Shown here piece by piece: positions 2,005-15,838 of a stretch of DNA of 45,538 nt. Source of the stretch: Bacteroidota bacterium (lineage in GTDB: Bacteria; Bacteroidota; Bacteroidia; B-17B0; Aurantibacillaceae). Positions within the stretch are counted from its first letter, which is position 1; each line of letters starts with the position of its first letter. The stretch is from the NCBI GenBank assembly GCA_013697245.1, contig JACCXH010000046.1, positions 1-45,538 on the forward strand, read 5' to 3'. The position numbers and the translations under genes were made by a program. Below the pieces are notes generated by a model. It saw nothing but the letters and a program-made list of their open reading frames with translations. It was not told the DNA's origin and searched no databases.

Positions 2005-2571
2005 TTAAAATTGCATATCCCATATTAAACCGATATTCTTCAAATAAACTTCTACTTCATCTGCGCTTTTTTCACCGCAATTTCTGAATTTGACAAATGC
2101 ACTTCTTCTCATAGTAACTAATTCGCCAATCGTTCTAATATCTTCGTGTTCACACACTGAAAGAACCCTTTTGGTAAATCCTGCATCATAAACAGAAACA
2201 TCAAATTTTGGCTTTAATTCAGCAGGAATACTCGCACGAGCATTTAATACCTTTTCTAAATCGTCAATTTTCTGTAATGCTTTTTTATGTTCAGCCAGTA
2301 ATAAAGTTACTGCTTCAAATTTAGGTTCTACTTGTGATAAATCTTTTTTTAGCTGTTTTACAGCATCTTCAAAAACTTTGGTAAATCTTTTCGTAGTTAG
2401 TTGTAAATTAACGGATGCCTCGTTTATCGTACTACCTTTTATTAAAATCTCAACCAATGCCTTATTGTAAACTTCAAATTGTTTTCCAAAGCGGACATTT
2501 AATAAAGCAGATAGCAAATCAAAAGTGCCTGTTTCTTTTAGGATTTGAGAATTATTCTTTTTTGTCGTCAT
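2005..2571 (-). CDS. Small protein with RNA polymerase alpha-CTD-like helix-hairpin-helix domain
   Basis: A 188-residue protein. The C-terminal part (about residues 122-188, from KFDVSVYDAGF to IGLIWDMQF) matches the pattern of the RNA polymerase alpha subunit C-terminal domain: an opening helix, an IRTIGELV segment, and a helix-hairpin-helix with FRNCGEKSADEVEVYL, comparable to the RNLGRKSLEEV loop of true alpha. The N-terminal half (residues 15-75) is helical and could hold a helix-turn-helix; residues 75-110 look like coiled coil. It is not the housekeeping rpoA: there is no alpha-NTD and no ribosomal-protein context. Free-standing alpha-CTD-like proteins may bind DNA or RNA polymerase; the role here is unknown. 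Its position next to a possible attachment site fits mobile-element cargo. Confidence 0.6.
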   Translation of the reverse strand: MTTKKNNSQILKETGTFDLLSALLNVRFGKQFEVYNKALVEILIKGSTINEASVNLQLTTKRFTKVFEDAVKQLKKDLSQVEPKFEAVTLLLAEHKKALQKIDDLEKVLNARASIPAELKPKFDVSVYDAGFTKRVLSVCEHEDIRTIGELVTMRRSAFVKFRNCGEKSADEVEVYLKNIGLIWDMQF

Positions 2572-4390: not shown

Positions 4391-5287
4391 TCATTTCACA
4401 TTTTCAGAAACAAGATATTCTTTTATCTTAGTCCATTTCATCAAATAACGGTCATTATCATGGTTTGTTATAACTGCTCTTCCTTCCATCATATCCCGCA
4501 TGTATTGCATGCCTTGCCAGGCGGGATATAATTCTGTTTTACTTCTGTCAAAAAATTTTGCAACGCCGATTATTGAATTTAGTAAACCAATTCCTCCGGG
4601 CCTAAAAAGTTTATATTTTGTTCCGGAGAGCTCTGACATTAAATTTTTTATATCATTTGCGCTCATAGTATCTCCCGCAATTTTTAAATATCTCGGCGAT
4701 GAATTATCTAAAGCAACATTTGCAGTATATTCGGCAACATTGTAAGTACTTGTGAAATCCATTTTTATATCTGGATTTCCCCAGCATAATATTTTCTTCT
4801 TTTTAAATAATATCAAAGGCATATCTGTAGTTAGTAAATCCATAAATGGACCATTAAATATGGTAGTAGCTTTGATAGGCTTTGTATCTAAATAAGTATG
4901 AAATTCGCGCCTAAGATCAAGATTTCTATTTTTTCCGGGCACCAAATTGGTGAAATCCGACGAGTAATCACTTGGTATAAAACGGGAAACACCCGCTTTC
5001 ACTACCGCATCTAAAAGCAATTTTTGAGAATCCACTATTGTTTCCCTCAATCCCGAAAATGCTGAAATAACGCAATTAACGTCTCGGCAAGCTTTAGCAA
5101 TCTCATCGCTATTTGTCATGTCAATTTGTAAAACCTTTATTCCTTTCTTCGTAAGATTTTCAATTTTTGTATGATTGGTTTCTTTTCTCACAATGGCAAT
5201 TACATTTGCTTTTTTTGAAATAAGCATATCCGCAATTTTACCACCTAAATTTCCTGTTGCTCCCGCAAGTAATATATTATCTTTCAT
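4391..5287 (-). CDS. NmrA-like NAD(P)-binding protein (atypical SDR)
   Basis: A 298-residue protein starting with the dinucleotide-binding motif GATGNLGGKIA (residues 9-19) and a basic stretch after strand 2 (IVRKET), which suggests NADP(H). The phrases RFIPSDYSSDF and TTIFNGPFMDLL match the NmrA/isoflavone-reductase-like branch of extended SDRs, which includes redox sensors and reductases. The gene starts 44 nt after the glycosyltransferase stop on the same strand and is followed by a terminator, so it may be the last gene of the carotenoid operon. No carotenoid function is known for this family; the link is by position only. Confidence 0.75.
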   Translation of the reverse strand: MKDNILLAGATGNLGGKIADMLISKKANVIAIVRKETNHTKIENLTKKGIKVLQIDMTNSDEIAKACRDVNCVISAFSGLRETIVDSQKLLLDAVVKAGVSRFIPSDYSSDFTNLVPGKNRNLDLRREFHTYLDTKPIKATTIFNGPFMDLLTTDMPLILFKKKKILCWGNPDIKMDFTSTYNVAEYTANVALDNSSPRYLKIAGDTMSANDIKNLMSELSGTKYKLFRPGGIGLLNSIIGVAKFFDRSKTELYPAWQGMQYMRDMMEGRAVITNHDNDRYLMKWTKIKEYLVSENVK

Positions 5288-5331: not shown

Positions 5332-6426
5332 TTATATTGTTTTAAATATTTCTTCTAGTTTCTCGCTAATTATCTTCTCGGGATTATCATTTAAGCAGAT
5401 ACCATATCCAAGTTGACTTAACCTTTCTGCATTCCATTCCTGTTCAAAGTGGTTGGTTAAAAAAAGCATTTGTTTTTTATGCCTTAAGCCTTCGTATATA
5501 GTACCGTTGCCACCGTGGCATATTAAAAGCGAACAATGAGGGAGTATTTTATCAAGATTAACAAAATCTCTGTGAAAAAAATGTGAACCTTTTAACTCTC
5601 TTTTAAGGTCTCCGGCAACTATAAAGTTTACCTTTTTGTATTTCTCGTCAGATAAAAAATTTAAAGAAGTCCAGTTGCCACTGCTCCCAAGACAAATACA
5701 GATGTTTATTTTATTCGGAGGCAAGGAGCTCATCAAATCTAACTCTTCGCTAGTTTGTTGATATAATAATGGCCCAATAACCTTATAGTTGAAAGGAGGT
5801 TTTTTAAGAGAGAATAATTCTTCAGAATCACAAACAAGATTTTCATCACCTTCTAGTTCGTCAAGGTAAAACAGCTTTTTACTTAAACCGTATTTTTTTC
5901 TAAGCTGTTTAAATGGTTTGTGCACTTGCGTGAAAGCTGCTTTTTCGGCAAATCTTGTAATTATTTTTGCGAGTGAAGAAGGGAGTTTTTTTAAGTATTC
6001 GTAACTATAATGTGTTCTTGATACACCACGTACACCATCATAATATTTTGACATATATGCATTCATTAATGAAATGCAATTTACATTTGTTTTTTCTGCT
6101 GCCATTTTTAATGTTGGAGATGTGTCTGAAATAACAAAATCCGGGTTCAGCGCATTAATCGCTTTTACCTGTGACAAGTAAACTCTTTCAAGATCCTTAT
6201 AATTTAACCACGAAAAATTAAACTCCGCCGCCTGTCTCATCACTTCTAATGCATCAAATTTTTCCACAACGAAAGAAGAATAGCCCGCTTTTTTTACGAA
6301 TACATCATATTTTTCAGAGTATGCGAAATGAATTTCATGATCACTATAAATTTCTGCAAGTTTAATACAACGCAAATAGTGCGACATCAGGTCGAAGGGA
6401 AATATGAGGATCCTCTTTTTAGGCAT
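5332..6426 (-). CDS. GT-B glycosyltransferase, probable carotenoid (zeaxanthin) glycosyltransferase
   Basis: A 364-residue UDP-glycosyltransferase-like protein (GT1 fold). The chosen start (MPKKRILIFPFD) overlaps the crtYcd stop by 8 nt; a longer frame to 6498 would run deep into crtYcd. The N-terminal half is a Rossmann-like acceptor domain with ALNPDFVISDTSPT. The C-terminal half carries a UDP-sugar-binding signature: CHGGNGTIYEGL, then NHFEQEWNAERLSQLGYG. Its place after the genes making hydroxylated beta-carotene points to glycosylation of zeaxanthin hydroxyls, like CrtX. Acceptor specificity is inferred from context; the sugar cannot be predicted. Confidence 0.75.
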   Translation of the reverse strand: MPKKRILIFPFDLMSHYLRCIKLAEIYSDHEIHFAYSEKYDVFVKKAGYSSFVVEKFDALEVMRQAAEFNFSWLNYKDLERVYLSQVKAINALNPDFVISDTSPTLKMAAEKTNVNCISLMNAYMSKYYDGVRGVSRTHYSYEYLKKLPSSLAKIITRFAEKAAFTQVHKPFKQLRKKYGLSKKLFYLDELEGDENLVCDSEELFSLKKPPFNYKVIGPLLYQQTSEELDLMSSLPPNKINICICLGSSGNWTSLNFLSDEKYKKVNFIVAGDLKRELKGSHFFHRDFVNLDKILPHCSLLICHGGNGTIYEGLRHKKQMLFLTNHFEQEWNAERLSQLGYGICLNDNPEKIISEKLEEIFKTI

Positions 6427-7108
6427 TTTTTGTTCTGAACCTTTCAAAAAAAGCTGTGTTAAGCAAAAGCAGTAACATTCCGTAAAAAATATCTTCAATA
6501 GGAATTGTCAAAATGCGAATACCTATATTTTCATCATCGTTATACCAAACTATAGGTTGATCAATCCCTGTTCCTGTTAAAGTTCCATTTACAATAAAAA
6601 AAGGCAATAATATAACCAGATACATTAGGTAAAATGTATTGAGCCAATGTTGTTTTTTAAAAAAGGAAAAGGTAAAAATCAAAGATGCTAATGCTATAAA
6701 AGTTACGCCAGTATAAAGTCGAGTAATATTTAAAACGCCCAAAATAGCTAAAAATATAATAAGCGTAACCGAAATAGGCTTTTGAAGTTTTTTTAATGAC
6801 GAAGGAAAGAATTGTGTAAAGCAGTAATAGGTAAAAATACTTGAATAGGGGATGCATGTAAAAAACAATATCTCTTCTAAAGGCAAACCTAATAATCGGT
6901 AACCAATGATGTATCTATCATTAAATCCCCAAACACCTAATTTAGTATATACAGCATCCCATATAAGAAAAATAAGTGTGGTTAAAAGATTAGCCGGCCA
7001 GAAGGCATGCCATTGTTTATGAAAATTTATTTTTGGATGAAAGCTAAATAAAAAGGGAACTATTATTGCCCCAATATCTATAACTAGATAAATATATTTA
7101 TCTGGCAT
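6419..7108 (-). CDS. crtYcd: Lycopene beta-cyclase, fused CrtYc-CrtYd type
   Basis: A 229-residue integral membrane protein with about seven hydrophobic helices. It consists of two tandem lycopene-cyclase domains, each with the hallmark acidic motif: PLEEILFF at 76-83 and PIEDIFYG at 203-210. In actinobacteria these are separate CrtYc and CrtYd subunits; fused forms occur in Bacteroidota, archaea and fungi. The enzyme closes both ends of lycopene to beta-carotene in the membrane without an FAD-binding fold. The gene overlaps crtZ upstream by 11 nt and the glycosyltransferase downstream by 8 nt, indicating tight translational coupling. Confidence 0.9.
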   Translation of the reverse strand: MPDKYIYLVIDIGAIIVPFLFSFHPKINFHKQWHAFWPANLLTTLIFLIWDAVYTKLGVWGFNDRYIIGYRLLGLPLEEILFFTCIPYSSIFTYYCFTQFFPSSLKKLQKPISVTLIIFLAILGVLNITRLYTGVTFIALASLIFTFSFFKKQHWLNTFYLMYLVILLPFFIVNGTLTGTGIDQPIVWYNDDENIGIRILTIPIEDIFYGMLLLLLNTAFFERFRTKNA

Positions 7109-7565
7109 TTTTCCTCGCTTCCTTAAAATACTTTAGTGACGGCAATAACATGCCAAAGCACTCTCCATCTTCTTTTCCGAGGTGCTTGTGATGTGTTTTG
7201 TGCGCCCGTCTTACAGCTCTAAAATATAAAGAATTTGCGTTCCGTAAAATTTTAATACGCTGGTGAATAAAAAGATCATGTATAAAAAAATAGGCGATTC
7301 CATACATGGTTATACCAACGGCAATCCAGAAAGGAAGCGAAAAATCATCAAATCCTATGTAAAAACAAACTATAGCGGGAGTTGCAAAAATTAAAAAGAA
7401 AGAATCATTGTGCTCAATGGCCTTGTTAGTATTTGGCTCATGATGATCTTTATGAAGACGCCACAACCAGCCGTGCATAATATACTTATGCGCGAGCCAT
7501 GCTACTGCTTCCATAAAAATAAAAGCTAAAATAACAAGCAATGTATTTAAGATCCAATTAGGCAT
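7098..7565 (-). CDS. crtZ: Beta-carotene hydroxylase
   Basis: A 155-residue non-heme di-iron membrane hydroxylase of the fatty-acid hydroxylase superfamily. All four histidine clusters are present: HKYIMH (26-31), HKDHH (38-42), HDLFIH (96-101) and HKTHH (122-126), set between hydrophobic helices. It adds 3- and 3'-hydroxyl groups to beta-carotene rings to give zeaxanthin. Length is typical for bacterial CrtZ. It precedes crtYcd with an 11-nt overlap and follows the conserved secreted protein after 38 nt. Confidence 0.95.
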   Translation of the reverse strand: MPNWILNTLLVILAFIFMEAVAWLAHKYIMHGWLWRLHKDHHEPNTNKAIEHNDSFFLIFATPAIVCFYIGFDDFSLPFWIAVGITMYGIAYFFIHDLFIHQRIKILRNANSLYFRAVRRAHKTHHKHLGKEDGECFGMLLPSLKYFKEARKNAR

Positions 7566-7603: not shown

Positions 7604-8104
7604 CTATTGCAAAATTTTCTTCTCGGAGGCAGTACAATATTTAGAACTTAATAAATAGTCCTTTATCCTTTTTTTTAGATCAAGATCTAAAATAGTTGAA
7701 TAATTAATCAATATAACACTTTTATCGGATGAAATATTACCACTATAAGCTAAAAAACTCGGCGCATTTGTTTGCACACAATATCGCAGAAACCTAAGTT
7801 CAACATTTTTCTCATCGGATTTGATCGCACCGTCTAAAAGCCCTTTTCCTTTAAAAAAATAGGATAATTTATTGTACGGATTAAACGCATGATTTGCCTT
7901 TATCATCCACGACATGCCGGAATAGCCCGTAAGGGTTATTTTATCGATACCTGTGGCGACAGCAGTTGCTTGCGCAAATTTTTCTGAAGCTTCTTTGCTA
8001 ATTGAGGCTTGATAGTATAAATTTCTTAATTTAACAATATCCATATCTGAGGCCCATTGTAAAAATGGTGTAACAAATAGAATTAATAAAAGAAGCTTTT
8101 TCAT
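7604..8104 (-). CDS. Conserved secreted protein of the carotenoid operon, function unknown
   Basis: A 166-residue protein with a signal peptide at residues 1-18 (MKKLLLLILFVTPFLQWA). The mature part is helical and contains an AFNPYNKLSYF segment, then KNVELRFLRYCVQTNAPSFL, a pattern I recall from similar uncharacterised proteins beside crtB in other Bacteroidota. It resembles one or two TPR-like helices but has no catalytic motif that I recognise. It lies between crtB (16 nt) and crtZ (38 nt), so it is co-expressed with pigment enzymes. A periplasmic role linked to pigment placement is a guess. Confidence 0.75.
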   Translation of the reverse strand: MKKLLLLILFVTPFLQWASDMDIVKLRNLYYQASISKEASEKFAQATAVATGIDKITLTGYSGMSWMIKANHAFNPYNKLSYFFKGKGLLDGAIKSDEKNVELRFLRYCVQTNAPSFLAYSGNISSDKSVILINYSTILDLDLKKRIKDYLLSSKYCTASEKKILQ

Positions 8105-8120
8105 TTTGTAATTATTTTAT

Positions 8121-8957
8121 TTATAAAATATTTAACTGGTGCCTTATAACACATTGAAACATTAATCCAAATTTTTGCGCATTTGGAATTCGGATACGCC
8201 TGTTTAATATCTCATTAGGGGGAACCGACTTTATCTTTTTAAATAAACGTCTATAATAATAGTATGCCAGATAAACACCCAACCTCGAATCAGCAGGAAG
8301 TTGTTTGATCCCTAAGAGTGCGTGCTTAAAATCCTTCTCTATATCTGATTCTATATCTTTTTTATTATAATTATCGAAGTGGTTTAAATCAACTCCCGGA
8401 AAATAAACCCTTCCAAGAATCTCGAAATCGGATTTCGCATCACGAAGGAAATTTACTTTTTGAAACGCGGCACCAAGGCTCATGGCAAATGGTTTTAGCT
8501 GTTCAAATAATTTTTCGTCGCCATTAACAAATACTTTAAGGCACATAAGACCTACAACCTCTGCAGAACCCAAGATATAAGATTCGTAATTTATTGTATC
8601 ATAATTTTTTTTATCGAGATCCATTTCCATACTCTTTAGAAATGTATCAATGTGGCTCCATGAGATATTGTATTCGTGAACAACCTTTTGGAATGAATTT
8701 AATATTGGATTTAGACTGATCTTATTATTCAAGGCTTCAACAGTATCTTCCCTAAATTTCCCTAAAAGCATATTTTTGTCGTATCCATGAAATGAATCCA
8801 CAATTTCATCAGCAAAACGTACAAAACCATAAATGCTATAAATGGGGTTATGGATATTTTTACTAAGAAATTTTATACCCAACGAAAAACTTGTGCTGTA
8901 TTGTTTAGTGACCAATTTACTGCATTCTGTTGAAACGTTATCAAATAAATCCTTCAT
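8121..8957 (-). CDS. crtB: Phytoene synthase
   Basis: A 278-residue trans-isoprenyl diphosphate synthase (squalene/phytoene synthase family) that condenses two geranylgeranyl diphosphates to phytoene. The first Asp-rich motif is ADEIVD (49-54), preceded by YGFVRF; the second is NFLRDAKSDFEILGRVYFP with Asp172 and Asp176. YILGSAEVVGLM (126-137) is also typical. The start overlaps the crtI stop by 4 nt. No geranylgeranyl diphosphate synthase gene lies in the window, so the precursor must come from elsewhere in the genome. Confidence 0.95.
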   Translation of the reverse strand: MKDLFDNVSTECSKLVTKQYSTSFSLGIKFLSKNIHNPIYSIYGFVRFADEIVDSFHGYDKNMLLGKFREDTVEALNNKISLNPILNSFQKVVHEYNISWSHIDTFLKSMEMDLDKKNYDTINYESYILGSAEVVGLMCLKVFVNGDEKLFEQLKPFAMSLGAAFQKVNFLRDAKSDFEILGRVYFPGVDLNHFDNYNKKDIESDIEKDFKHALLGIKQLPADSRLGVYLAYYYYRRLFKKIKSVPPNEILNRRIRIPNAQKFGLMFQCVIRHQLNIL

Positions 8958-10429
8958 AGTTGTGCGCGAAATTTTTTTATTAATTCATTAGCGGCTACCT
9001 GACCAGAAATAATTGCCGGAGGTACACCGGGCCCCGGAACGGTTAATTGCCCCGTGTAATAAAAATTATTAATGTGTTTGTTTTTTATTTTTGGCTTTAA
9101 ATTAGCGGTTTGTGCCAGTATATTTGCAAGGCCGTATGCATTTCCTTTATATGAGTTATAATCCTTTTCAAAATCACTCACACAATAACTTTTTTGAAAT
9201 TCAATATTATTTCTGATATCAGTTTGAGTAAATTTTTCAAGCCTTTGCATTAATTTTTCAAAGTATTCAAAGCGTGCCTCGCCACTATCTTCTAAACCTG
9301 CAGCAATTGGCATCAGGATAAAAAGATTTTCCTTTCCTTCGGGTGCAACCGATGAGTCGGTTTTAGAAGGACAGCAAACATAGAACAAAGGCTTTGAAGG
9401 CCATTTTGGATCTGTATAAATTTCGTTTGAGTGCATGTCGAAATCTTCATCAAAAAAAAGATTATGATGTTCGAGATTATTAATTTTTTTATTTACACCA
9501 AGGTAAAACAAAAGGCAGGAAGGAGCAAACGTTCTACTTTCCCAATATTCATTTTTATAATTGCGAAATTGAGTTGGCAATAATTTCGTCTCTACATGAT
9601 TGTAATCGGCCCCGGCGATTAAACCATCTACTTTTAGATGGCGTTTTTCTGTTTGGATTTTAATTAAATTATCATCATAATTAATGGATGTAACAGGTTC
9701 AGAAGGGAAGAATTCAACGCCATTTTCAGTGGCAATTTTTACAACGCCATCAATCACCTTTTTGAAACCACCCATGGGGTAAAATGTACCTTGCTTAAGC
9801 CCCGAATAATTCATTAAGCTATAAAGCGCCGGAGTATCTTTTGGCATAGCGCCCAAAAAAAGAATGGGAAATTCCATTAAAGAGATAAGCCGTTCATCTT
9901 TAAAGTATTTTCTTACGTGATGACTAAACGATGAAAACAGTTGGAGTTTAAAGAAGCCTTTGATAGTTTCGGGTGTAATGAGTTCTCTTAATGAAAGGCC
10001 GGGTTTGTACACAAGATTATTTATGCCAACCATGTACTTATACTCGGCTCCGCTCATAAATTTTTTAAGATTATCAGCAGCACCGGTTTCTATACTTTCA
10101 AATAGATCCAATAATTTATCCCAACTATAAGGGATTTTAATTGACTCGGAGTTTTTATAAATCACCTGAAAGCCGGGATCGAGTGTAACCAAATGATAAA
10201 GATCAGAAGTTGTATAATTAAAATTATTAAAAAATTTTTCGAATACATCAGGCATCCAATACCAACTTGGCCCCATGTCAAATGTAAAACCTGACTCTGT
10301 GAATTGCCGCATTCTGCCACCAAGCTGTTCGTTCTTTTCAAAAACGTTAACCTTATAGCCTGCTTTTGCTACAATAGCCGCAGCGCTTAAGCTACTAATG
10401 CCAGATCCTATAACGCCAACTGTTTTCAA
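8954..10429 (-). CDS. crtI: Phytoene desaturase (CrtI type)
   Basis: A 491-residue FAD-dependent desaturase that converts phytoene to lycopene. The N-terminus has the FAD-binding motif VIGSGISSLSAA and the acidic strand VNVFEKNEQLGGRM; the C-terminus holds the CrtI-family signature GQLTVPGPGVPPAIISGQ. The start codon is TTG at 10427-10429: an in-frame TAA lies two codons upstream, and the protein begins correctly at MKTVGVIGSG. It is the first gene of the carotenoid operon and is preceded by the operator at 10475-10512. No second desaturase or saturase (crtD, crtN) is seen. Confidence 0.95.
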   Translation of the reverse strand: MKTVGVIGSGISSLSAAAIVAKAGYKVNVFEKNEQLGGRMRQFTESGFTFDMGPSWYWMPDVFEKFFNNFNYTTSDLYHLVTLDPGFQVIYKNSESIKIPYSWDKLLDLFESIETGAADNLKKFMSGAEYKYMVGINNLVYKPGLSLRELITPETIKGFFKLQLFSSFSHHVRKYFKDERLISLMEFPILFLGAMPKDTPALYSLMNYSGLKQGTFYPMGGFKKVIDGVVKIATENGVEFFPSEPVTSINYDDNLIKIQTEKRHLKVDGLIAGADYNHVETKLLPTQFRNYKNEYWESRTFAPSCLLFYLGVNKKINNLEHHNLFFDEDFDMHSNEIYTDPKWPSKPLFYVCCPSKTDSSVAPEGKENLFILMPIAAGLEDSGEARFEYFEKLMQRLEKFTQTDIRNNIEFQKSYCVSDFEKDYNSYKGNAYGLANILAQTANLKPKIKNKHINNFYYTGQLTVPGPGVPPAIISGQVAANELIKKFRAQL

Positions 10430-10460: not shown

Positions 10461-10468
10461 CAAATATG
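10461..10468 (-). promoter_or_regulatory. Candidate -7 element of the crtI promoter
   Basis: Read on the minus strand this is CATATTTG, one mismatch from the Bacteroidota TAnnTTTG element, 32 nt before the crtI TTG start. The proximal operator arm begins 6 nt upstream. The -33 element is less clear. The remainder of 10515-10681 shows no gene. Confidence 0.5.
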
Positions 10469-10474
10469 CAAAAT

Positions 10475-10512
10475 ATTTTGTTTAACAAATAATAATTATT
10501 GTTAAACAAAAC
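10475..10512. promoter_or_regulatory. Bipartite operator upstream of crtI
   Basis: Arms ATTTTGTTTAACAA (10475-10488) and TTGTTAAACAAAAC (10499-10512) are reverse complements at 13 of 14 positions with a 10-nt spacer. Each arm also contains an 11-bp palindrome of the form TTGTTWAACAA. The same architecture recurs at 13125-13162. The proximal arm falls in the -33/-7 spacer of the crtI promoter, where binding should repress. Likely ligand: the MerR-family protein encoded at 10682-11560 (inference). Confidence 0.75.
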
Positions 10513-10681
10513 AAAAATACCAAAAAATGACCTTTGCTGTAAATTATGTGTTAAAATGAGCGGTTTTAAGGTTGATGATTAAAAAACAGAAACAAGCCTG
10601 GCATAAGAACTGCACTTAAATAAATAAAATTAAAAAGGTGGTAAAAATGAGTCAGTATATAATCCTAAAAAATGGAGTTAT

Positions 10682-11560
10682 TTATAAAAAGGTCAAGAGG
10701 TCCTTAGGATGGCTAATTATGTGCGCGCCTAATTTGTCTTTTAAATACTGTGTAGTAACCGAGCTGCCGCTAACAAGTAATTTTATACTTTCGCCCAGAT
10801 GCAAATTTTTCTTGATATCGCTATAAATAGCTTTTTCATCTTTTGGGGTTGTAAAGAATGTAAGTATGAAATTTGGCTTTATTTGCTTTAACACAACCGA
10901 TATGTTTTCATAAGGTACATCTTGACCTAAATAAATTGTTTCGCAGCCCTTAGACCGAATAATATAATTGGCGAAAAGAAGACTAATTTCGTGGAGTTCT
11001 CCCGGAACTAATAATAAAAGAAATTTCTTTTTTTTGTTTTTTGCTAAAGGTAAACCATCTGTAGCCGACATTATTTTTCGTTTAAGTAAGCAAGAGGCAA
11101 AATGTTCCTGAGCCGGGCTAACATTATTGATAGACCATAAGAGTCCAATATTATTTAAAAGCGGATAAAATACATTTAACATGGCATCAAATAATCCAAA
11201 CCTGTTTATTACTGCAGAATATGTTTTTTCAAAAGCAGGTTCGTCAAAAGATATCATGGCTTTAACAAGATCATTAATGAAGTTTTTGCATATTATATCT
11301 TCATTGTTACTTGAATTTAGTTCAAAAACCTTTCCATGAATGTCTTTTTCGGTTAAGGCAGCAATTTTAGAGATTTTGTAGCCATTAGATAAGAGAGTAG
11401 ATACATTTAAAAGTTTTTTTACCTGTTCATCATTATAACGCCTGTAATTGGTAGATGTTCTATCCGGCTCAATAAGATTATATCTTTTCTCCCAAATTCT
11501 TATAGTATGGGCTTTAATGCCGGTTAATTGTTCTAATTCTGTTATTTGATATAGCCTCAT
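10682..11560 (-). CDS. MerR-family regulator with B12-binding domain (CarH/LitR-like)
   Basis: A 292-residue regulator. Residues 1-72 are a MerR winged-helix DNA-binding domain (YQITELEQLTGIKAHTIRIWEKRY, with RRYNDEQVKKLL). Residues 85-165 form the helical cap and carry the Wx9EH motif as Trp142, Glu152 and His153. Residues 178-292 are a cobalamin-binding Rossmann domain with GELHEISL, whose His190 matches the lower axial ligand of CarH. CarH proteins hold adenosylcobalamin, repress in the dark and release DNA when light breaks the Co-C bond. Here the residue after Trp142 is Ser, where Thermus CarH has the His that caps cobalt in the light state, so the photochemistry may differ. It is the last gene of the pterin operon, so it is probably autoregulated through 13125-13162. 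Confidence 0.88.
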   Translation of the reverse strand: MRLYQITELEQLTGIKAHTIRIWEKRYNLIEPDRTSTNYRRYNDEQVKKLLNVSTLLSNGYKISKIAALTEKDIHGKVFELNSSNNEDIICKNFINDLVKAMISFDEPAFEKTYSAVINRFGLFDAMLNVFYPLLNNIGLLWSINNVSPAQEHFASCLLKRKIMSATDGLPLAKNKKKKFLLLLVPGELHEISLLFANYIIRSKGCETIYLGQDVPYENISVVLKQIKPNFILTFFTTPKDEKAIYSDIKKNLHLGESIKLLVSGSSVTTQYLKDKLGAHIISHPKDLLTFL

Positions 11561-11591
11561 TTTAATGATAAATTTAATATAAATTATACAG

Positions 11592-12008
11592 CTAAACTAC
11601 TTCCCAAGTATGATCGCTTAATAAACGTACGGTGCTAACAAATTCTAATGAGTTGGGAGCAGAACGTCCCCATTCTTCCGGCCCAATCATCATTAGTTTA
11701 TATTCGCCATTTTTTTTATATAAATGATAACTATTGCCAATAAAAGGTTCAAAAGATATTGTAGCCATATATATATATTCGCTCACATCTACTCTTTTTT
11801 TTATTTCATTTGCTTGATCTATAAGTAATTCAACTTGCTTTTGAATTTGAAATAATTGCATTTGGGTTTGCTCGTGCATTGCTGAAAGAGCCCTTGACTT
11901 TAATTTGCCAACATCTTCGGGTTTTACAACTATACTTCCAATAGTATGAGGATAGGGTATTAAACCAGGGTTTTCAGCAACTTTATCTTTGTCAATCGGG
12001 TTAACCAT
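11592..12008 (-). CDS. DUF2452 family protein
   Basis: A 138-residue soluble protein with no signal peptide. The pattern NPGLIPYPHTIGSIVVKPED, a central helix (MHEQTQMQLFQIQKQVELLI) and a C-terminal beta-rich part with PFIGNSYHLYKKNGEYKLMMIGPEEWG matches DUF2452, a family of unknown function common in Bacteroidota. Its ATG shares one base with the folE stop (TAATG), so translation is coupled. The MerR gene follows after 31 nt. Membership in this operon suggests a role in the same response; nothing in the sequence defines a reaction. Confidence 0.8.
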   Translation of the reverse strand: MVNPIDKDKVAENPGLIPYPHTIGSIVVKPEDVGKLKSRALSAMHEQTQMQLFQIQKQVELLIDQANEIKKRVDVSEYIYMATISFEPFIGNSYHLYKKNGEYKLMMIGPEEWGRSAPNSLEFVSTVRLLSDHTWEVV

Positions 12009-12724
12009 TAATTGCCAGTTTTAATATTTAAATAACTCAAAAACTCTTTTTTGGTATGTTCATCTGCAAATTTACCACCATAAAAAGAAGTTATTGTGGA
12101 TGAACTATCATCTTTTATCCCTCTTGAAGAAACACATAAATGTTTTGCGTTAATTATTACTGCAATGTCTTCGGTTTTAAGTATTTCTTTTAACTCTCTT
12201 GCAATTTGCATGGTAAGTCGTTCTTGAACCTGTGGTCGCTTTGCATAATAGTTTACAATACGATTAAGTTTTGACAAACCAATAACGCTGCCATTTGAAA
12301 TATATGCTACATGGGCTTTTCCAAAAAAAGGAACAAAATGATGCTCGCAATTACTATAAAACGTTATGTCTTTTTCAACTAACATTTGATTGTAATGATA
12401 TTTATTCTCAAACAACTTTATTGATGGCTTATTTGAGGGATCTAATCCATTAAATATCTCCTTTACGTACATTTTTGCAACGCGGTTGGGTGTTCCCTTA
12501 AGACTGTCATCATTAAGATCTAAACCCAAAGTTTCCATTATCTCCTTAAAACAAAGTTCTATTTTTGCTATTTTTTCTTCTTCTGTGATGCTAAAAGCAT
12601 TCGCTGTCATAGGCGTATCAATTCCTGAAGAGATGTGATCATTTCCAATTTCCTCGCTTGTTAATTCACCAATAAATGAATTTTCTTTAAGAAGGGTATT
12701 CAACATAATTTCTTTCTGTTTCAT
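12008..12724 (-). CDS. folE: GTP cyclohydrolase I
   Basis: A 238-residue enzyme converting GTP to 7,8-dihydroneopterin triphosphate. The signature segments are present: SNCEHHFVPFFGKAHVAY (zinc Cys126, His128 and His129), GLSKLNRIV, RPQVQERLT and AKHLCVSSRGIKD (zinc Cys197). About 45 N-terminal residues precede the usual core. The ATG overlaps the upstream PTPS frame by 38 nt; a second Met at residue 7 would still overlap. Pairing with PTPS suggests a dedicated pterin branch rather than general folate synthesis, though a separate housekeeping copy elsewhere cannot be checked here. Confidence 0.95.
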   Translation of the reverse strand: MKQKEIMLNTLLKENSFIGELTSEEIGNDHISSGIDTPMTANAFSITEEEKIAKIELCFKEIMETLGLDLNDDSLKGTPNRVAKMYVKEIFNGLDPSNKPSIKLFENKYHYNQMLVEKDITFYSNCEHHFVPFFGKAHVAYISNGSVIGLSKLNRIVNYYAKRPQVQERLTMQIARELKEILKTEDIAVIINAKHLCVSSRGIKDDSSSTITSFYGGKFADEHTKKEFLSYLNIKTGN

Positions 12725-13103
12725 ATAAAATAATTTTTAATTCATACTTAATTTCAATCTTTGGCCTTAAAATCGTGTATATCACCCATGCAATATTTTC
12801 CGCAGTAGGATTTATGTGCTTAAATTCCTCAATATCAAGATTTAGGTTTTTATGATCAAATCGTTCAATAATTTCTGTTTTTATTAAATCACTTAAAATT
12901 TTCATGTCAATAACATAACCTGTAACTGCATCAATTTCTCCAGCTACTTTAATGATCAATTCATAATTATGACCATGGTAGTTAATGTTATTGCACTTGC
13001 CAAAGATGGCTTTGTTTTCTTCTATGCTTAACAGATCGTTATGAAGCCTATGCGCAGCGTTAAAATGCTCTTTCCTATATACCGAAACTTTAAAACTTTC
13101 CAT
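12687..13103 (-). CDS. 6-pyruvoyl-tetrahydropterin synthase family protein (PTPS/QueD)
   Basis: A 138-residue homologue of PTPS/6-carboxytetrahydropterin synthase. Zinc ligands are visible: His18 in EHFNAAHRL and the pair in NYHGHNYEL (43 and 45); the GKCNN segment before it carries the candidate catalytic Cys. A C-terminal Glu in LYETERNYVEY could anchor the pterin. The family acts on dihydroneopterin triphosphate, the FolE product, giving 6-pyruvoyl-tetrahydropterin or, in queuosine synthesis, carboxytetrahydropterin. No other queuosine gene is nearby, which favours a tetrahydropterin product. It is the first gene of the operon; the -7 element lies so close that the mRNA may be nearly leaderless. 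Confidence 0.88.
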   Translation of the reverse strand: MESFKVSVYRKEHFNAAHRLHNDLLSIEENKAIFGKCNNINYHGHNYELIIKVAGEIDAVTGYVIDMKILSDLIKTEIIERFDHKNLNLDIEEFKHINPTAENIAWVIYTILRPKIEIKYELKIILYETERNYVEYPS

Positions 13104-13111
13104 TTACGGTA

Positions 13112-13119
13112 CAAATTTA
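13112..13119 (-). promoter_or_regulatory. Candidate -7 element of the PTPS-folE-DUF2452-merR operon
   Basis: On the minus strand this is TAAATTTG, an exact match to TAnnTTTG. It sits 5 nt downstream of the proximal operator arm and only 8 nt before the ATG, so transcription would start almost at the start codon. Confidence 0.55.
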
Positions 13120-13124
13120 AGATT

Positions 13125-13162
13125 ATTTTGTTTAATAATTAAATAAATTTGTTAAACAAAAT
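13125..13162. promoter_or_regulatory. Bipartite operator between the PTPS and SRPBCC operons
   Basis: Arms ATTTTGTTTAATAA (13125-13138) and TTGTTAAACAAAAT (13149-13162) are reverse complements at 13 of 14 positions, again with a 10-nt spacer, matching the crtI site in arm sequence and geometry. It lies in the shared 94-nt region between divergent genes and could control both. The left arm overlaps the PTPS core promoter; the right arm ends 9 nt before the SRPBCC -7-like element. Confidence 0.75.
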
Positions 13163-13197: not shown

Positions 13198-13659
13198 ATG
13201 TTACATGTAATTAAAACTAAACAATTCATTAATAGCGATATAAATACTGTATGGGATTTTATGAGTTCGCCATCTAATCTTAAAGTAATAACACCCGAAT
13301 ACATGAATTTTACAATTATTGATGAAAATGCGAAAAGCGAGAAAATGTTTCAAGGTCAAATTATTGAATATACTGTTTCACCTGTTTTAGGAATCGCTCT
13401 AAATTGGGTAACGGAAATAACGCACGTTGAAGATAAAAATTACTTTGTAGATGAGCAACGCTTTGGTCCTTATTCATTTTGGCATCACAAACATTTTATT
13501 AAACAGGTAACTGGCGGAGTTGAAATGATTGATATAGTGCATTACAAATTGCCATTTGGTTTTATAGGTAAATTATTAAACGGATTATTTGTAAAAAAAC
13601 AGTTAAAAAAAATATTTGATTATCGCCATAAAAAAATCGAAGAATTATTTAATAAATAG
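13198..13659 (+). CDS. SRPBCC (START-like) ligand-binding protein
   Basis: A 153-residue protein with the helix-grip pattern of the SRPBCC superfamily: an opening strand (VIKTKQFINSDINTVWDFMSSPSNLKVITP), a central sheet with FGPYSFWHHKHFI, and a long C-terminal helix (RHKKIEELFNK). Members bind hydrophobic ligands in a deep cavity; this subgroup is often found beside photolyase, SDR and TIGR03643 genes in light-responsive clusters. The ligand is unknown. First gene of the plus-strand operon; the next gene starts 3 nt after its TAG stop. Confidence 0.8.
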   Translation: MLHVIKTKQFINSDINTVWDFMSSPSNLKVITPEYMNFTIIDENAKSEKMFQGQIIEYTVSPVLGIALNWVTEITHVEDKNYFVDEQRFGPYSFWHHKHFIKQVTGGVEMIDIVHYKLPFGFIGKLLNGLFVKKQLKKIFDYRHKKIEELFNK

Positions 13660-13662
13660 ATA

Positions 13663-14031
13663 ATGAAGCAAAACGATAATACATACTGCTACTATAGTGA
13701 TCTGCCATCACCTATGGCTTACGTGGAAATAGAAGATTTAAAACTGACAAGTAAATTATCAGAAATAGATATCAACCGTATTATAGAAATGGCTTGGGAA
13801 GATCGCACCACGTTCGACGCAATAAAATTTCAATTTGGATTAAAAGAGAGTGACGTTAAAACTCTAATGAAAAACAAATTAAAATTTAGCAGCTATAAAT
13901 TGTGGCGAAAACGTGTAGAAACCTCCAAAACCAAACATGCAAAAACACGCGTAAATGGCATCCATCGTTTTAAGAGCAATTTGCAGCGTAGTATTACATT
14001 TAATAAGATATCAAAACAACGAACGAAATGA
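13663..14031 (+). CDS. TIGR03643 family protein
   Basis: A 122-residue basic protein. The core LSEIDINRIIEMAWEDRTTF followed by IKFQFGLKESDVKTLM and SSYKLWRKRV matches TIGR03643, a small family with a helix-turn-helix-like helical pattern that is usually under 100 residues and linked to cryptochrome/photolyase clusters. Here about 30 extra N-terminal residues and a basic tail are present. A downstream Met at residue 18 is an alternative start. It overlaps the SDR gene by 4 nt (ATGA). Nucleic-acid binding is plausible but unproved. Confidence 0.8.
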   Translation: MKQNDNTYCYYSDLPSPMAYVEIEDLKLTSKLSEIDINRIIEMAWEDRTTFDAIKFQFGLKESDVKTLMKNKLKFSSYKLWRKRVETSKTKHAKTRVNGIHRFKSNLQRSITFNKISKQRTK

Positions 14032-14717
14032 ATAAAACCTATTTATTTGCAGGCGCATCAAGCTTAATGGCCATTAAAACTGCAGAACTGATGCAAACTC
14101 AAGGCCATCATATTATTGGGCTTTCAACTAAAGAAAAAAGTTATGATTATGACACTTTTTTTAAAGTAGAGAATTATGAAACTATTAATTTGCCTGCAAT
14201 AACAGACAATATAGATGGTTTGGTTTATTTTCCGGGTACTATCAATTTAAAACCTTTTCATCGGTTAACTACTCCGGAATTTAGAATTGACTACGAGACA
14301 AATTCCTTAGGCGCTGTTAATTGTATTCAAACATATTTACCTAATCTTAAAAAGAGCACTAAGGCATCTATCGTTTTAATTAGTTCTGTTGCCGTACAAA
14401 TGGGCATGCCTTTCCATGCTTCTATAGCGATGTCAAAAGGCGCCTTAGAAGGATTAACAAAGGCATTGGCAGCAGAATTAGCGCCAATTATTCGCGTAAA
14501 CGCTGTAGCACCTTCCTTAACATCTACACCTCTTGCTGAAAGGTTTACAAACACACCTGATAAGTTAGAAGCTTCCGAAAAAAGAAATCCACTAAAAAAA
14601 GTAGGCAAAGCTGAAGAGATAGCACAATCAATTTCATTTTTATTAACCGATCAGTCGGCTTGGATAACAGGACAAATTTTAGCTGTTGACGGTGGAATGG
14701 GAACTTTAAAACTATGA
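14028..14717 (+). CDS. SDR-fold protein lacking the catalytic Tyr
   Basis: A 229-residue protein with the classical SDR length and C-terminal landmarks (RVNAVAPSLTSTPLA, then ITGQILAVDGG). Two key sites differ. The cofactor loop reads GASSLMAIK rather than TGxxxGIG, and the YxxxK motif is I133-A-M-S-K137, so the catalytic Tyr is Ile while Ser120 and Lys137 remain. It therefore looks like a binding protein or an unusual reductase. In a pterin-linked operon a sepiapterin-reductase-like role was considered, but the missing Tyr argues against normal carbonyl reduction. It overlaps both neighbours by 4 nt. Confidence 0.8.
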   Translation: MNKTYLFAGASSLMAIKTAELMQTQGHHIIGLSTKEKSYDYDTFFKVENYETINLPAITDNIDGLVYFPGTINLKPFHRLTTPEFRIDYETNSLGAVNCIQTYLPNLKKSTKASIVLISSVAVQMGMPFHASIAMSKGALEGLTKALAAELAPIIRVNAVAPSLTSTPLAERFTNTPDKLEASEKRNPLKKVGKAEEIAQSISFLLTDQSAWITGQILAVDGGMGTLKL

Positions 14718-15367
14718 TCATGCAACAAGAATTTAAATTAAGTGACATCCTTGCTTTTGAACAACGCTATCGCGCAACGCTGATCAACTCATTGGGAGGT
14801 TTTAAAAGTTTAGTCTTAATTGGTACTGTAAATCCAACTGGAAAAACTAATTTAGCTGTTTTCAATTCTTTGTTTCATTTAGGGGCTAATCCTCCGCTAT
14901 TCGGTTTTATTGTACGTCCCGATTCATCAGATAGACACACATTAAGCAATATTTTATCTACCCTTGAATTTACGGTAAACCATGTGCATGAAAATTTTTA
15001 TAAACAAGCACATCAAACATCAGCTCGATACAACGCTTCAACCAGCGAGTTTGACTCTACTGGTTTAACGCCTGAGTATAGAGGTGGACATACAGCACCT
15101 TTTGTTAAAGAAAGTAAAATACAAATTGCTGCCGATTTTGTAAGGAAAGTAGATCTGATTGAGAATGGAACCTCGCTAATAATTGCACAAATAAAAAGTA
15201 TTTCGGTGCCGCAGGATTGTTTGTTGACCGATGGATTTGTTGATCTGGAAAAAGCCGGATCGCTTACTTGTAGTGGCTTAGATAGCTATCACAGCACAAA
15301 AAAAATCGCCCGTTTAACCTACGCAAAACCGAATACGCCTTTAAGTGAAATTCATAAACCAAAATAA
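14714..15367 (+). CDS. Flavin reductase-like FMN-binding split-barrel protein
   Basis: A 217-residue protein of the flavin reductase/flavoredoxin-like group. The pattern KSLVLIGTVNPTGKTNLAVFNSLFHLGANPPLFGFIVR, a DRHTLSNI segment and EFTVNHV resembles FMN-binding split barrels. It probably binds FMN and may reduce free flavin with NAD(P)H. The start ATG overlaps the SDR stop by 4 nt; a second ATG 6 nt later is equally possible. In this regulon it may supply reduced flavin for a light-linked flavoprotein, but no such photolyase or cryptochrome is present in the window. Confidence 0.85.
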   Translation: MIMQQEFKLSDILAFEQRYRATLINSLGGFKSLVLIGTVNPTGKTNLAVFNSLFHLGANPPLFGFIVRPDSSDRHTLSNILSTLEFTVNHVHENFYKQAHQTSARYNASTSEFDSTGLTPEYRGGHTAPFVKESKIQIAADFVRKVDLIENGTSLIIAQIKSISVPQDCLLTDGFVDLEKAGSLTCSGLDSYHSTKKIARLTYAKPNTPLSEIHKPK

Positions 15368-15370
15368 AGC

Positions 15371-15838
15371 ATGAATAAATATTTAAAATTGGCACTTTGT
15401 ATCTTAACACCGTTACTAATAGGTGCAGTTGCCGATATTGCAACAGCCACAAGTATTGACGGCTGGTTTGTTGAATTAAACAAGCCGATTTTTAATCCTC
15501 CAAATTATTTATTTGGGCCTGTTTGGACGTTTCTATATATTTTAATGGGAATATCACTATTCTTAATCATGCAAACACCAAAAGTTTATGCCAGAAGGAG
15601 AGCAATCGTAATTTTTGTCATCCAATTATTTTTAAATTTTTGCTGGAGTTTTCTGTTTTTTAAATTTCACTTATTATGCTTAGCATTTATAGAAATTATT
15701 GTAATTTGGTTAAGTATAATAACGATGATCTATGCTTTTAAAAAAATAAATAAAACTGCTGCCTACTTACAAATACCCTATTTGCTATGGGTTAGTTTTG
15801 CAAGTGTTTTAAACGGTACAATTTGTTATTTAAATTAA
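15371..15838 (+). CDS. tspO: TspO/MBR family membrane protein
   Basis: A 155-residue protein with five hydrophobic helices and the family pattern: LNKPIFNPPNYLFGPVWTFLYILMG, NFCWSFLFF and PYLLWVSFASVLN. TspO proteins bind porphyrins and cholesterol-like ligands and influence tetrapyrrole breakdown and photo-oxidative stress; in Rhodobacter TspO affects expression of photosynthesis and carotenoid genes. The ATG lies 3 nt after the flavin reductase stop, so it closes the operon. Its co-regulation with carotenoids suggests handling of photosensitising porphyrins. Confidence 0.92.
   Translation: MNKYLKLALCILTPLLIGAVADIATATSIDGWFVELNKPIFNPPNYLFGPVWTFLYILMGISLFLIMQTPKVYARRRAIVIFVIQLFLNFCWSFLFFKFHLLCLAFIEIIVIWLSIITMIYAFKKINKTAAYLQIPYLLWVSFASVLNGTICYLN

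Follow-up and report, generated by a model that had tools for sequence, protein, structure and literature searches.

The stretch analysed here, referred to as the window, is a 45,538-nucleotide contig (C7) of a 74-contig, 4.44-Mb genome (G000) from a Bacteroidota bacterium of the family Aurantibacillaceae. It carries a carotenoid (crt) gene cluster, a pterin gene run that ends in a gene for a MerR-type regulator with a B12-binding domain (MerR-B12), and a divergent run leading from an SRPBCC-like protein to a TspO protein (Table 1). One inverted repeat occurs twice in this region, upstream of crtI and in the gap between the divergent genes for 6-pyruvoyl tetrahydropterin synthase (PTPS) and the SRPBCC-like protein. 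A vitamin-B12-linked repressor of a light-sensing type very probably binds this paired sequence. The arrangement is a real regulatory unit and probably represents a variant of CarH/LitR-type control.

Exact copies of TTTTGTTTAAYAA-N10-TTGTTAAACAAAA are found at positions 10476-10511 (matches on both strands) and 13126-13161 of the window. The paired pattern did not occur in any of 100 dinucleotide shuffles, and a pattern search of the window returned no third copy. The initial annotation, made by eye, had placed two paired sites here and reported the lack of another, and both statements hold. The lone arm TTTGTTWAACAAA, at up to two mismatches, is present 15 times in the window against 12.4 expected, which is not above chance. 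Since the single arm stays at the chance level and the pair is absent from the shuffles, the signal is the pair at a fixed spacing.

The unit shared by 40 loci of the same family (L063-L102) is an outer inverted repeat, TTGTTTAA-N16-TTAAACAA. It replaces the 14-nucleotide arms with an N10 spacer by which the initial annotation had defined the operator, and which were rejected as the conserved unit because the inner part of the arm (CAA/TTG) is weakly kept in relatives: position 9 is C or T, and positions 10-11 are mixed. Also favoured, as counted on 46 and 29 distinct exact sites, are T at positions -1 and 0, mirrored by A on the opposite flank, and a pyrimidine (C or T) at position 9. The spacing is specific. 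With a gap of 16, the family loci (652 kb) contain 43 exact sites and 57 at up to one mismatch, against 0 and 1 for the reversed control, while named Bacteroidota loci (1.43 Mb) contain 29 and 71, against 0 and 0. All other gaps tried from 8 to 24 bp gave 0-6 sites each. Because these loci had been selected for encoding a MerR relative, or in part of the family set for carrying a motif found earlier, it is the comparison with the reversed control and with other gaps that counts as evidence, and not the density of sites.

Each half-site carries TnnACA facing outward, and the centres of the half-sites are 24 bp apart. Tandem 11-bp repeats of the CarH type, considered as a pattern hidden within the operator, were rejected, as offsets of 11 are not enriched: TnnACA is found at -11 and +11 from the right half in 3/254 and 2/254 cases, with a mean of 2.4 per offset, and at -22 and +22 in 1/254 and 8/254. 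An excess at 21 bp from the right half (49/254) is given little weight, because most of its letters are set by the core, which leaves free just C and A at positions 9-10. Smaller excesses at offsets -20 and -19 (8 and 19) probably reflect neighbouring operators. In some relatives, operators are paired 41-45 or 62-63 bp apart, near 4 or 6 helical turns (L079, L089, L094, L095, L122, L125, L128, L141, L144, L151, L165 and L181). Such pairs precede genes of extracytoplasmic function (ECF) sigma factors where checked (L095, L122, L128, L151 and L165).

A genome-wide motif search, which the initial annotation had proposed as a check, returned four exact cores and not a scatter over many unrelated genes. 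All four lie in putative promoter regions: at crtI, between PTPS and SRPBCC, at a photolyase/cryptochrome cluster on contig C41 and at a gene for a SpoIIE-type phosphatase on contig C3. A 34-bp pattern allowing one mismatch recovered the same number of places, namely the two window sites, C3:46846 and C41:83741. At up to three mismatches there were 4 forward and 5 reverse matches, and the reversed control gave 3 and 1, so only near-exact sites are counted in the genome; the sole further place at this threshold is on C23, within an open reading frame (ORF). One might argue that the two window sites arose by chance in AT-rich DNA, since this reversed control is nearly as frequent at three mismatches and single arms have the frequency expected by chance. 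This explanation is rejected, its probability being practically negligible, given the empty shuffles, the specificity for a gap of 16, and the exact cores, which 45 of the 65 family genomes (each at least 90% complete) contain, whereas the reversed control is found in 2 of the 65.

The C41 operator stands upstream of a run that encodes a photolyase, a DUF2071 protein, a photolyase-related DPRP protein and a second photolyase/cryptochrome. The C3 operator is located at the start of the SpoIIE-type phosphatase gene, which is followed by a gene for a 147-aa protein without a Pfam match (L009:4995-6394). The called start of the SpoIIE ORF places this operator within the gene; it is read as probably upstream, because the alignment with relatives starts only at residue 27-28 and the operator is followed by a TAAATTTG box. 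In one relative (L085), the SpoIIE pair ends a same-strand run that begins at an operator and contains cryptochrome, photolyase-related and other genes, and in another (L070) the SpoIIE and 147-aa gene pair lies beside the crt-merR region. By gene order, the regulon would comprise about 22 genes at five promoters (7 + 4 + 5 + 4 + 2). It is thus predicted to be larger than the roughly 16 genes first proposed, with photolyases and the SpoIIE phosphatase added.

The motif is tied to the MerR-B12 gene. In the family set, the exact motif is present in 44 of 47 genomes with the MerR gene and in 1 of 18 without it; in that single MerR-negative genome (G019) the match falls within an ORF. In a phylum sample of 296 genomes, where MerR was called by profile at E up to 1e-30, the motif occurs in 37/63 genomes with MerR and 0/233 without, compared with 4/63 and 2/233 for the reversed control. 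Within the window's own class, to which 36 of the 37 motif-bearing genomes of this sample belong, the counts are 36/56 and 0/17. The pairing of motif and regulator is therefore widespread in the class and recurs in many Bacteroidota. The earlier proposal that one operator belonging to the MerR-B12 protein unites three operons is strongly supported by the rarity of the motif, its conservation at the same promoters in relatives and its co-occurrence with the regulator.

The repeat might alternatively be read by another factor that travels with these genes, such as the ECF sigma factor encoded beside photolyase or an unlinked repressor. The factors are indeed linked, as the operator before a related ECF sigma gene is intact in 9 of 10 inspected relatives, most of which had been picked for a known site; the inspected region of L205 has no site. 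When the partners are separated, however, the motif follows MerR. It is present in 8 of 9 genomes that have MerR and lack a clear ECF sigma ortholog (at a cut-off of E 1e-35, chosen by the analyst), in 4 of 4 with MerR and no crtB, and in 1 of 3 with crtB and no MerR, that one within an ORF. ECF sigma and crt genes are thus disfavoured as the true partner of the motif. In addition, a symmetric inverted repeat is unlike a sigma promoter, and the half-sites hold TnnACA, which is the CarH half-site (PMC9304148). We give a different reader only a slim chance.

The targets in relatives agree with those in the window. They were counted over 21 loci (L063-L083) whose MerR proteins are 43-80% identical, taking sites within 350 bp upstream in usable cases. 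Sites precede crtI in 13/15 cases, PTPS in 4/5 and SRPBCC in 12/13, and they are less regular before folE (6/13), DUF2452 (2/15) and TspO (1/6). None of these loci has a site directly upstream of crtB (0/15), crtZ (0/13), phrA (0/2) or cryD (0/3). In the seven folE misses, the gene comes after PTPS (L063-L067), is farther from the site (L068) or comes after crtB (L070). At up to one mismatch, crtI in L075 and L081 has no upstream site, and two-mismatch sites are found there upstream of merR; PTPS and SRPBCC in L067 likewise have none at that threshold, with a two-mismatch site in their shared gap. Overall, 28 of 33 sites are assigned to the listed genes and 5 of 33 are unassigned.

Of the 80 named Bacteroidota loci, 54 have a site (gap 16 or 17) in their stretch and 26 have none. 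Loci that hold both merR and an operator include some from Pontibacter, Marivirga and Algoriphagus type strains (L120-L122, L140, L148, L149 and L151). Among 19 stretches of other phylum-sample members, sites are located before crtI beside merR, merR itself, folE and a run of SRPBCC, short-chain dehydrogenase (SDR) and photolyase genes, as well as before a cryptochrome/DPRP pair, an SDR gene and an ECF sigma gene. Several of these sites precede genes without an assigned identity or fall within called ORFs, and two of the stretches fetched (L221 and L222) contain no site. An ECF sigma gene stands between merR and crtI, crtB or folE in 7 of 9 inspected loci (L095, L118, L122, L128, L137, L151 and L165, of which L118 has no site; not in L109 and L147), and the predicted regulon of relatives includes this gene. 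A LitR protein associated with an ECF sigma factor is also known in Streptomyces, which the order in these wider Bacteroidota resembles. Unlike that system, the crtI, pterin and SRPBCC operons in the lineage of the window carry the operator directly, and the site upstream of the genome's own ECF sigma gene, which is followed by a photolyase gene (L194:4523-6452, contig C6), is degenerate, with 5 mismatches by eye.

The operators overlap promoter boxes. The sequence TAnnTTTG, which a flavobacterium uses as the -7 box for its primary sigma factor (PMC9723704), is found within 47 of 127 operators, compared with 4.7 +/- 2.2 when spacers are shuffled and 5.5 +/- 2.2 when columns are shuffled. A second common place for this box is about 8 bp downstream of the operator (offset 40, 13 cases). 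The location of -7 boxes within operators suggests repression by covering of the promoter. Some proteins of the MerR family instead activate transcription by re-aligning promoter boxes, and the operators here stand at several distances from -7 boxes, as an activator might allow. Nevertheless, a box inside the operator favours blocking, and the characterised LitR and CarH proteins are negative regulators (PMC9758184, PMC6739363), so that activation at these promoters is distinctly unlikely.

As the initial annotation had recognised, merR lies inside a controlled operon: it comes last in the PTPS-folE-DUF2452-merR run, with a 31-bp gap before it. Because it ends an operator-controlled run, autoregulation is likely, as far as gene order indicates. 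Under the proposed mechanism, MerR-B12 with bound adenosylcobalamin (AdoCbl) would sit on TTGTTTAA-N16-TTAAACAA in the dark, covering the -7 box and the region upstream of it and blocking transcription. Light would break the Co-C bond and cause the protein to release the DNA, upon which the carotenoid, tetrahydropterin, SRPBCC-TspO and photolyase genes would be expressed. With merR at the end of the controlled pterin run, the regulator would also limit its own supply.

The MerR-B12 protein itself resembles CarH/LitR in its modelled fold and key residues. It has an N-terminal MerR-type DNA-binding domain (PF13411, E 1.8e-17, residues 4-70) and a C-terminal B12-binding_2 domain (PF02607, E 1.2e-08); PF02310 is not among the matches listed at E 0.001. 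Its best solved relatives are the CarH/LitR structures of Thermus thermophilus (E 1.7e-20). A structure model built from 30 aligned sequences (pLDDT 89.2, pTM 0.67) superposes on the cobalamin domains of CarH with Z of 21-22 and 2.2-2.4 A over about 195 residues. The adenosyl-capping motif Wx9EH is kept (W142...E152 H153), as in 29 of the 30 sequences, and the E and H of ExH are invariant in 30/30. The only MerR relative among the 30 without the His of Wx9EH is L080:1368-2243 (+), where the motif ends in ERF; its locus still has operators. A light-response signature of GxxW, EH, GxxH and GxxxP, taken from PMC11796333, is present in the window protein as GLLW 139-142, EH 152-153, GELH 187-190 and GQDVP 212-216, although the G of GxxH is not kept in every relative.

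Taken together, the two sites are likely, and we hold this with good confidence, to be operators of the MerR-B12 protein encoded between them, working like CarH/LitR. Computation establishes the operator, the specificity of its spacing, its tie to the MerR gene and the way it overlaps promoter boxes, whereas direct binding, repression, binding of cobalamin, response to light and control of its own gene are the properties that we infer for the protein. The response to light and cobalamin is predicted from the signatures of the protein together with the gene content.

Several observations weigh against this reading. The exact motif is absent from 26/63 MerR-bearing genomes of the phylum sample, which may use diverged sites, and from 3/47 of the family, and outside the window's class it occurs in 1/7 genomes with MerR against 0/216 without. 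The Fisher values for the tie (1e-11 in the family and 1.4e-6 in the class) are too strong, because the genomes are related and not independent; their direction is clear. On C41, 284 bp separate the operator from the first photolyase start called. In the protein, the strict motif ExHx2Gx41SxV/Tx22-27GG is not found by eye: E188, H190 and T237 are kept, G193 is replaced by S, the S position (235) is F, and GG is S264 G265. Moreover, the equivalent of His132 is Ser143 in the window protein and S, T, V, I, A, Q or L across the 30 sequences, never His, and the T. thermophilus H132A variant is described as mostly tetrameric in light, in a paper that also cites an earlier report of disassembly (PMC10442372). 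Since the B12 motif is partly changed and the His132 equivalent is not His, the protein is described as working like CarH/LitR and is not filed as a strict CarH, whose definition by motif is given in PMC8156234.

These features of the protein leave room for a MerR that binds the operators and answers to a signal other than AdoCbl photolysis, such as a partner protein, the redox state or another ligand, in the manner of CarA or class II LitR. Precedents exist, as CarA is B12-independent and class II LitR of Pseudomonas uses a partner with a LOV domain (PMC8156234, PMC9758184). The conservation of Wx9EH, the E and H of ExH, GxxW and GxxxP argues against it, and CtMerR, with Arg at the position of His132, is described in dark and light-exposed forms (PMC11796333). 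The content of the regulon is that of light protection, and the genome has a cobalamin adenosyltransferase gene, which is weak evidence because the gene is common (9 of 14 control genomes also have it). We consider a signal other than photolysis rather unlikely.

The unit read as CarH/LitR-like shares with CarH of T. thermophilus and Bacillus megaterium the MerR and B12 domains, Wx9EH, the lower-ligand His and carotenoid targets, as well as an operator that overlaps the promoter and half-sites that hold TnnACA (PMC9304148). Unlike CarH, which uses tandem 11-bp direct repeats, it relies on an inverted repeat with a 16-bp spacer, and it differs from the T. thermophilus protein in lacking His132 and the strict B12 motif. 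The regulon resembles that of the class II LitR proteins PplR1 and PmlR2 of Pseudomonas, which includes photolyase, cryptochrome-like and folE genes and the regulator itself (PMC9758184). However, the window has no match to the Pseudomonas site T(G/A)TACA-N12-TGTA(C/T)A with one mismatch or none, the half-site centres computed from that consensus are 18 bp apart, versus 24 bp here, and PmlR2 answers to a LOV partner (PMC9758184), for which no gene was sought here. CarA of Myxococcus xanthus is likewise a MerR-like repressor with a large operator at a crt promoter; unlike the present protein, it is described in PMC8156234 as lacking Wx9EH and independent of B12.

Control of carotenoid genes by CarH/LitR is already known, as is that of photolyase and folE genes in Pseudomonas (PMC8156234, PMC9758184, PMC6739363). 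For Bacteroidota, neither this operator nor a mapped CarH-type regulon is reported in the matches listed from the open-licence literature, and a paper on light-induced carotenoids in Chryseobacterium, in its available part, only speculates on a CarA/LitR-like gene (PMC7064467). A wider proposal, which we hold tentatively and lean slightly against, is that these proteins form a separate Bacteroidota branch of B12 photoreceptor-repressors with their own DNA geometry. Outward TnnACA half-sites 24 bp apart would be read by a dimer or tetramer assembled unlike known CarH, the switch would operate without the His132 exchange, and across a large part of the class a single operator would directly control genes for pigment and pterin synthesis, photolyases and phosphatase, joined in many relatives by those for ECF sigma factors.

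If the CarH/LitR-like reading is correct, light control through vitamin B12 gains a defined operator that can be searched for, in a group with many carotenoid-bearing bacteria of water and soil, and this operator would allow the prediction of regulons from sequence. Pterin synthesis, photolyases and a SpoIIE phosphatase would be tied to one signal. It would also pose a concrete structural question: what lets a CarH-like protein recognise an inverted repeat with an N16 spacer, and how does it switch when His132 is missing?

Table 1. Operator sites, promoter boxes and genes of the window discussed in the text. Motif names of the MerR-B12 protein follow PMC8156234 and PMC11796333.
Feature	Position	Strand	Remarks
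Operator core TTGTTTAA-N16-TTAAACAA	10478..10509	none	upstream of crtI (10475-10512 in the initial annotation)
Operator core	13128..13159	none	between divergent PTPS and SRPBCC genes
TAAATTTG, putative -7 box within operator, towards SRPBCC	13144..13151	+	from sequence and consensus of PMC9723704
TAAATTTG, putative -7 box just downstream of operator, towards PTPS	13112..13119	-	offset-40 class
CATATTTG, possible crtI -7 box	10461..10468	-	one change from TAnnTTTG
MerR-B12 regulator, CarH/LitR-like, 292 aa	10682..11560	-	GxxW 139-142, Wx9EH 142-153, ExH 188-190, GxxxP 212-216
DUF2452 protein	11592..12008	-	
folE, GTP cyclohydrolase I	12008..12724	-	
PTPS, 6-pyruvoyl tetrahydropterin synthase	12687..13103	-	first gene of pterin-merR run
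SRPBCC-like protein	13198..13659	+	label of the initial annotation; sub-threshold Pfam match Polyketide_cyc, E 0.041
DUF2805 protein	13663..14031	+	
Short-chain dehydrogenase	14028..14717	+	
Flavin reductase-like protein	14714..15367	+	
TspO/MBR protein	15371..15838	+	
crtI, phytoene desaturase-type (amine oxidoreductase fold)	8954..10429	-	name from context
crtB, squalene/phytoene synthase family	8121..8957	-	
crt-cluster protein, 166 aa	7604..8104	-	no Pfam match
Putative crtZ hydroxylase	7098..7565	-	by eye; no significant Pfam match
Lycopene cyclase	6419..7108	-	
Glycosyltransferase	5332..6498	-	
NmrA-like protein	4391..5287	-	possible last gene of crt operon, from 44-bp gap

Two further observations concern individual proteins of the window. 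The 166-aa protein (7604-8104) comes after crtB in many of the crt clusters inspected. Additionally, positions 2005-2571 (-) encode a 188-aa protein with an RNA polymerase alpha C-terminal-like domain.

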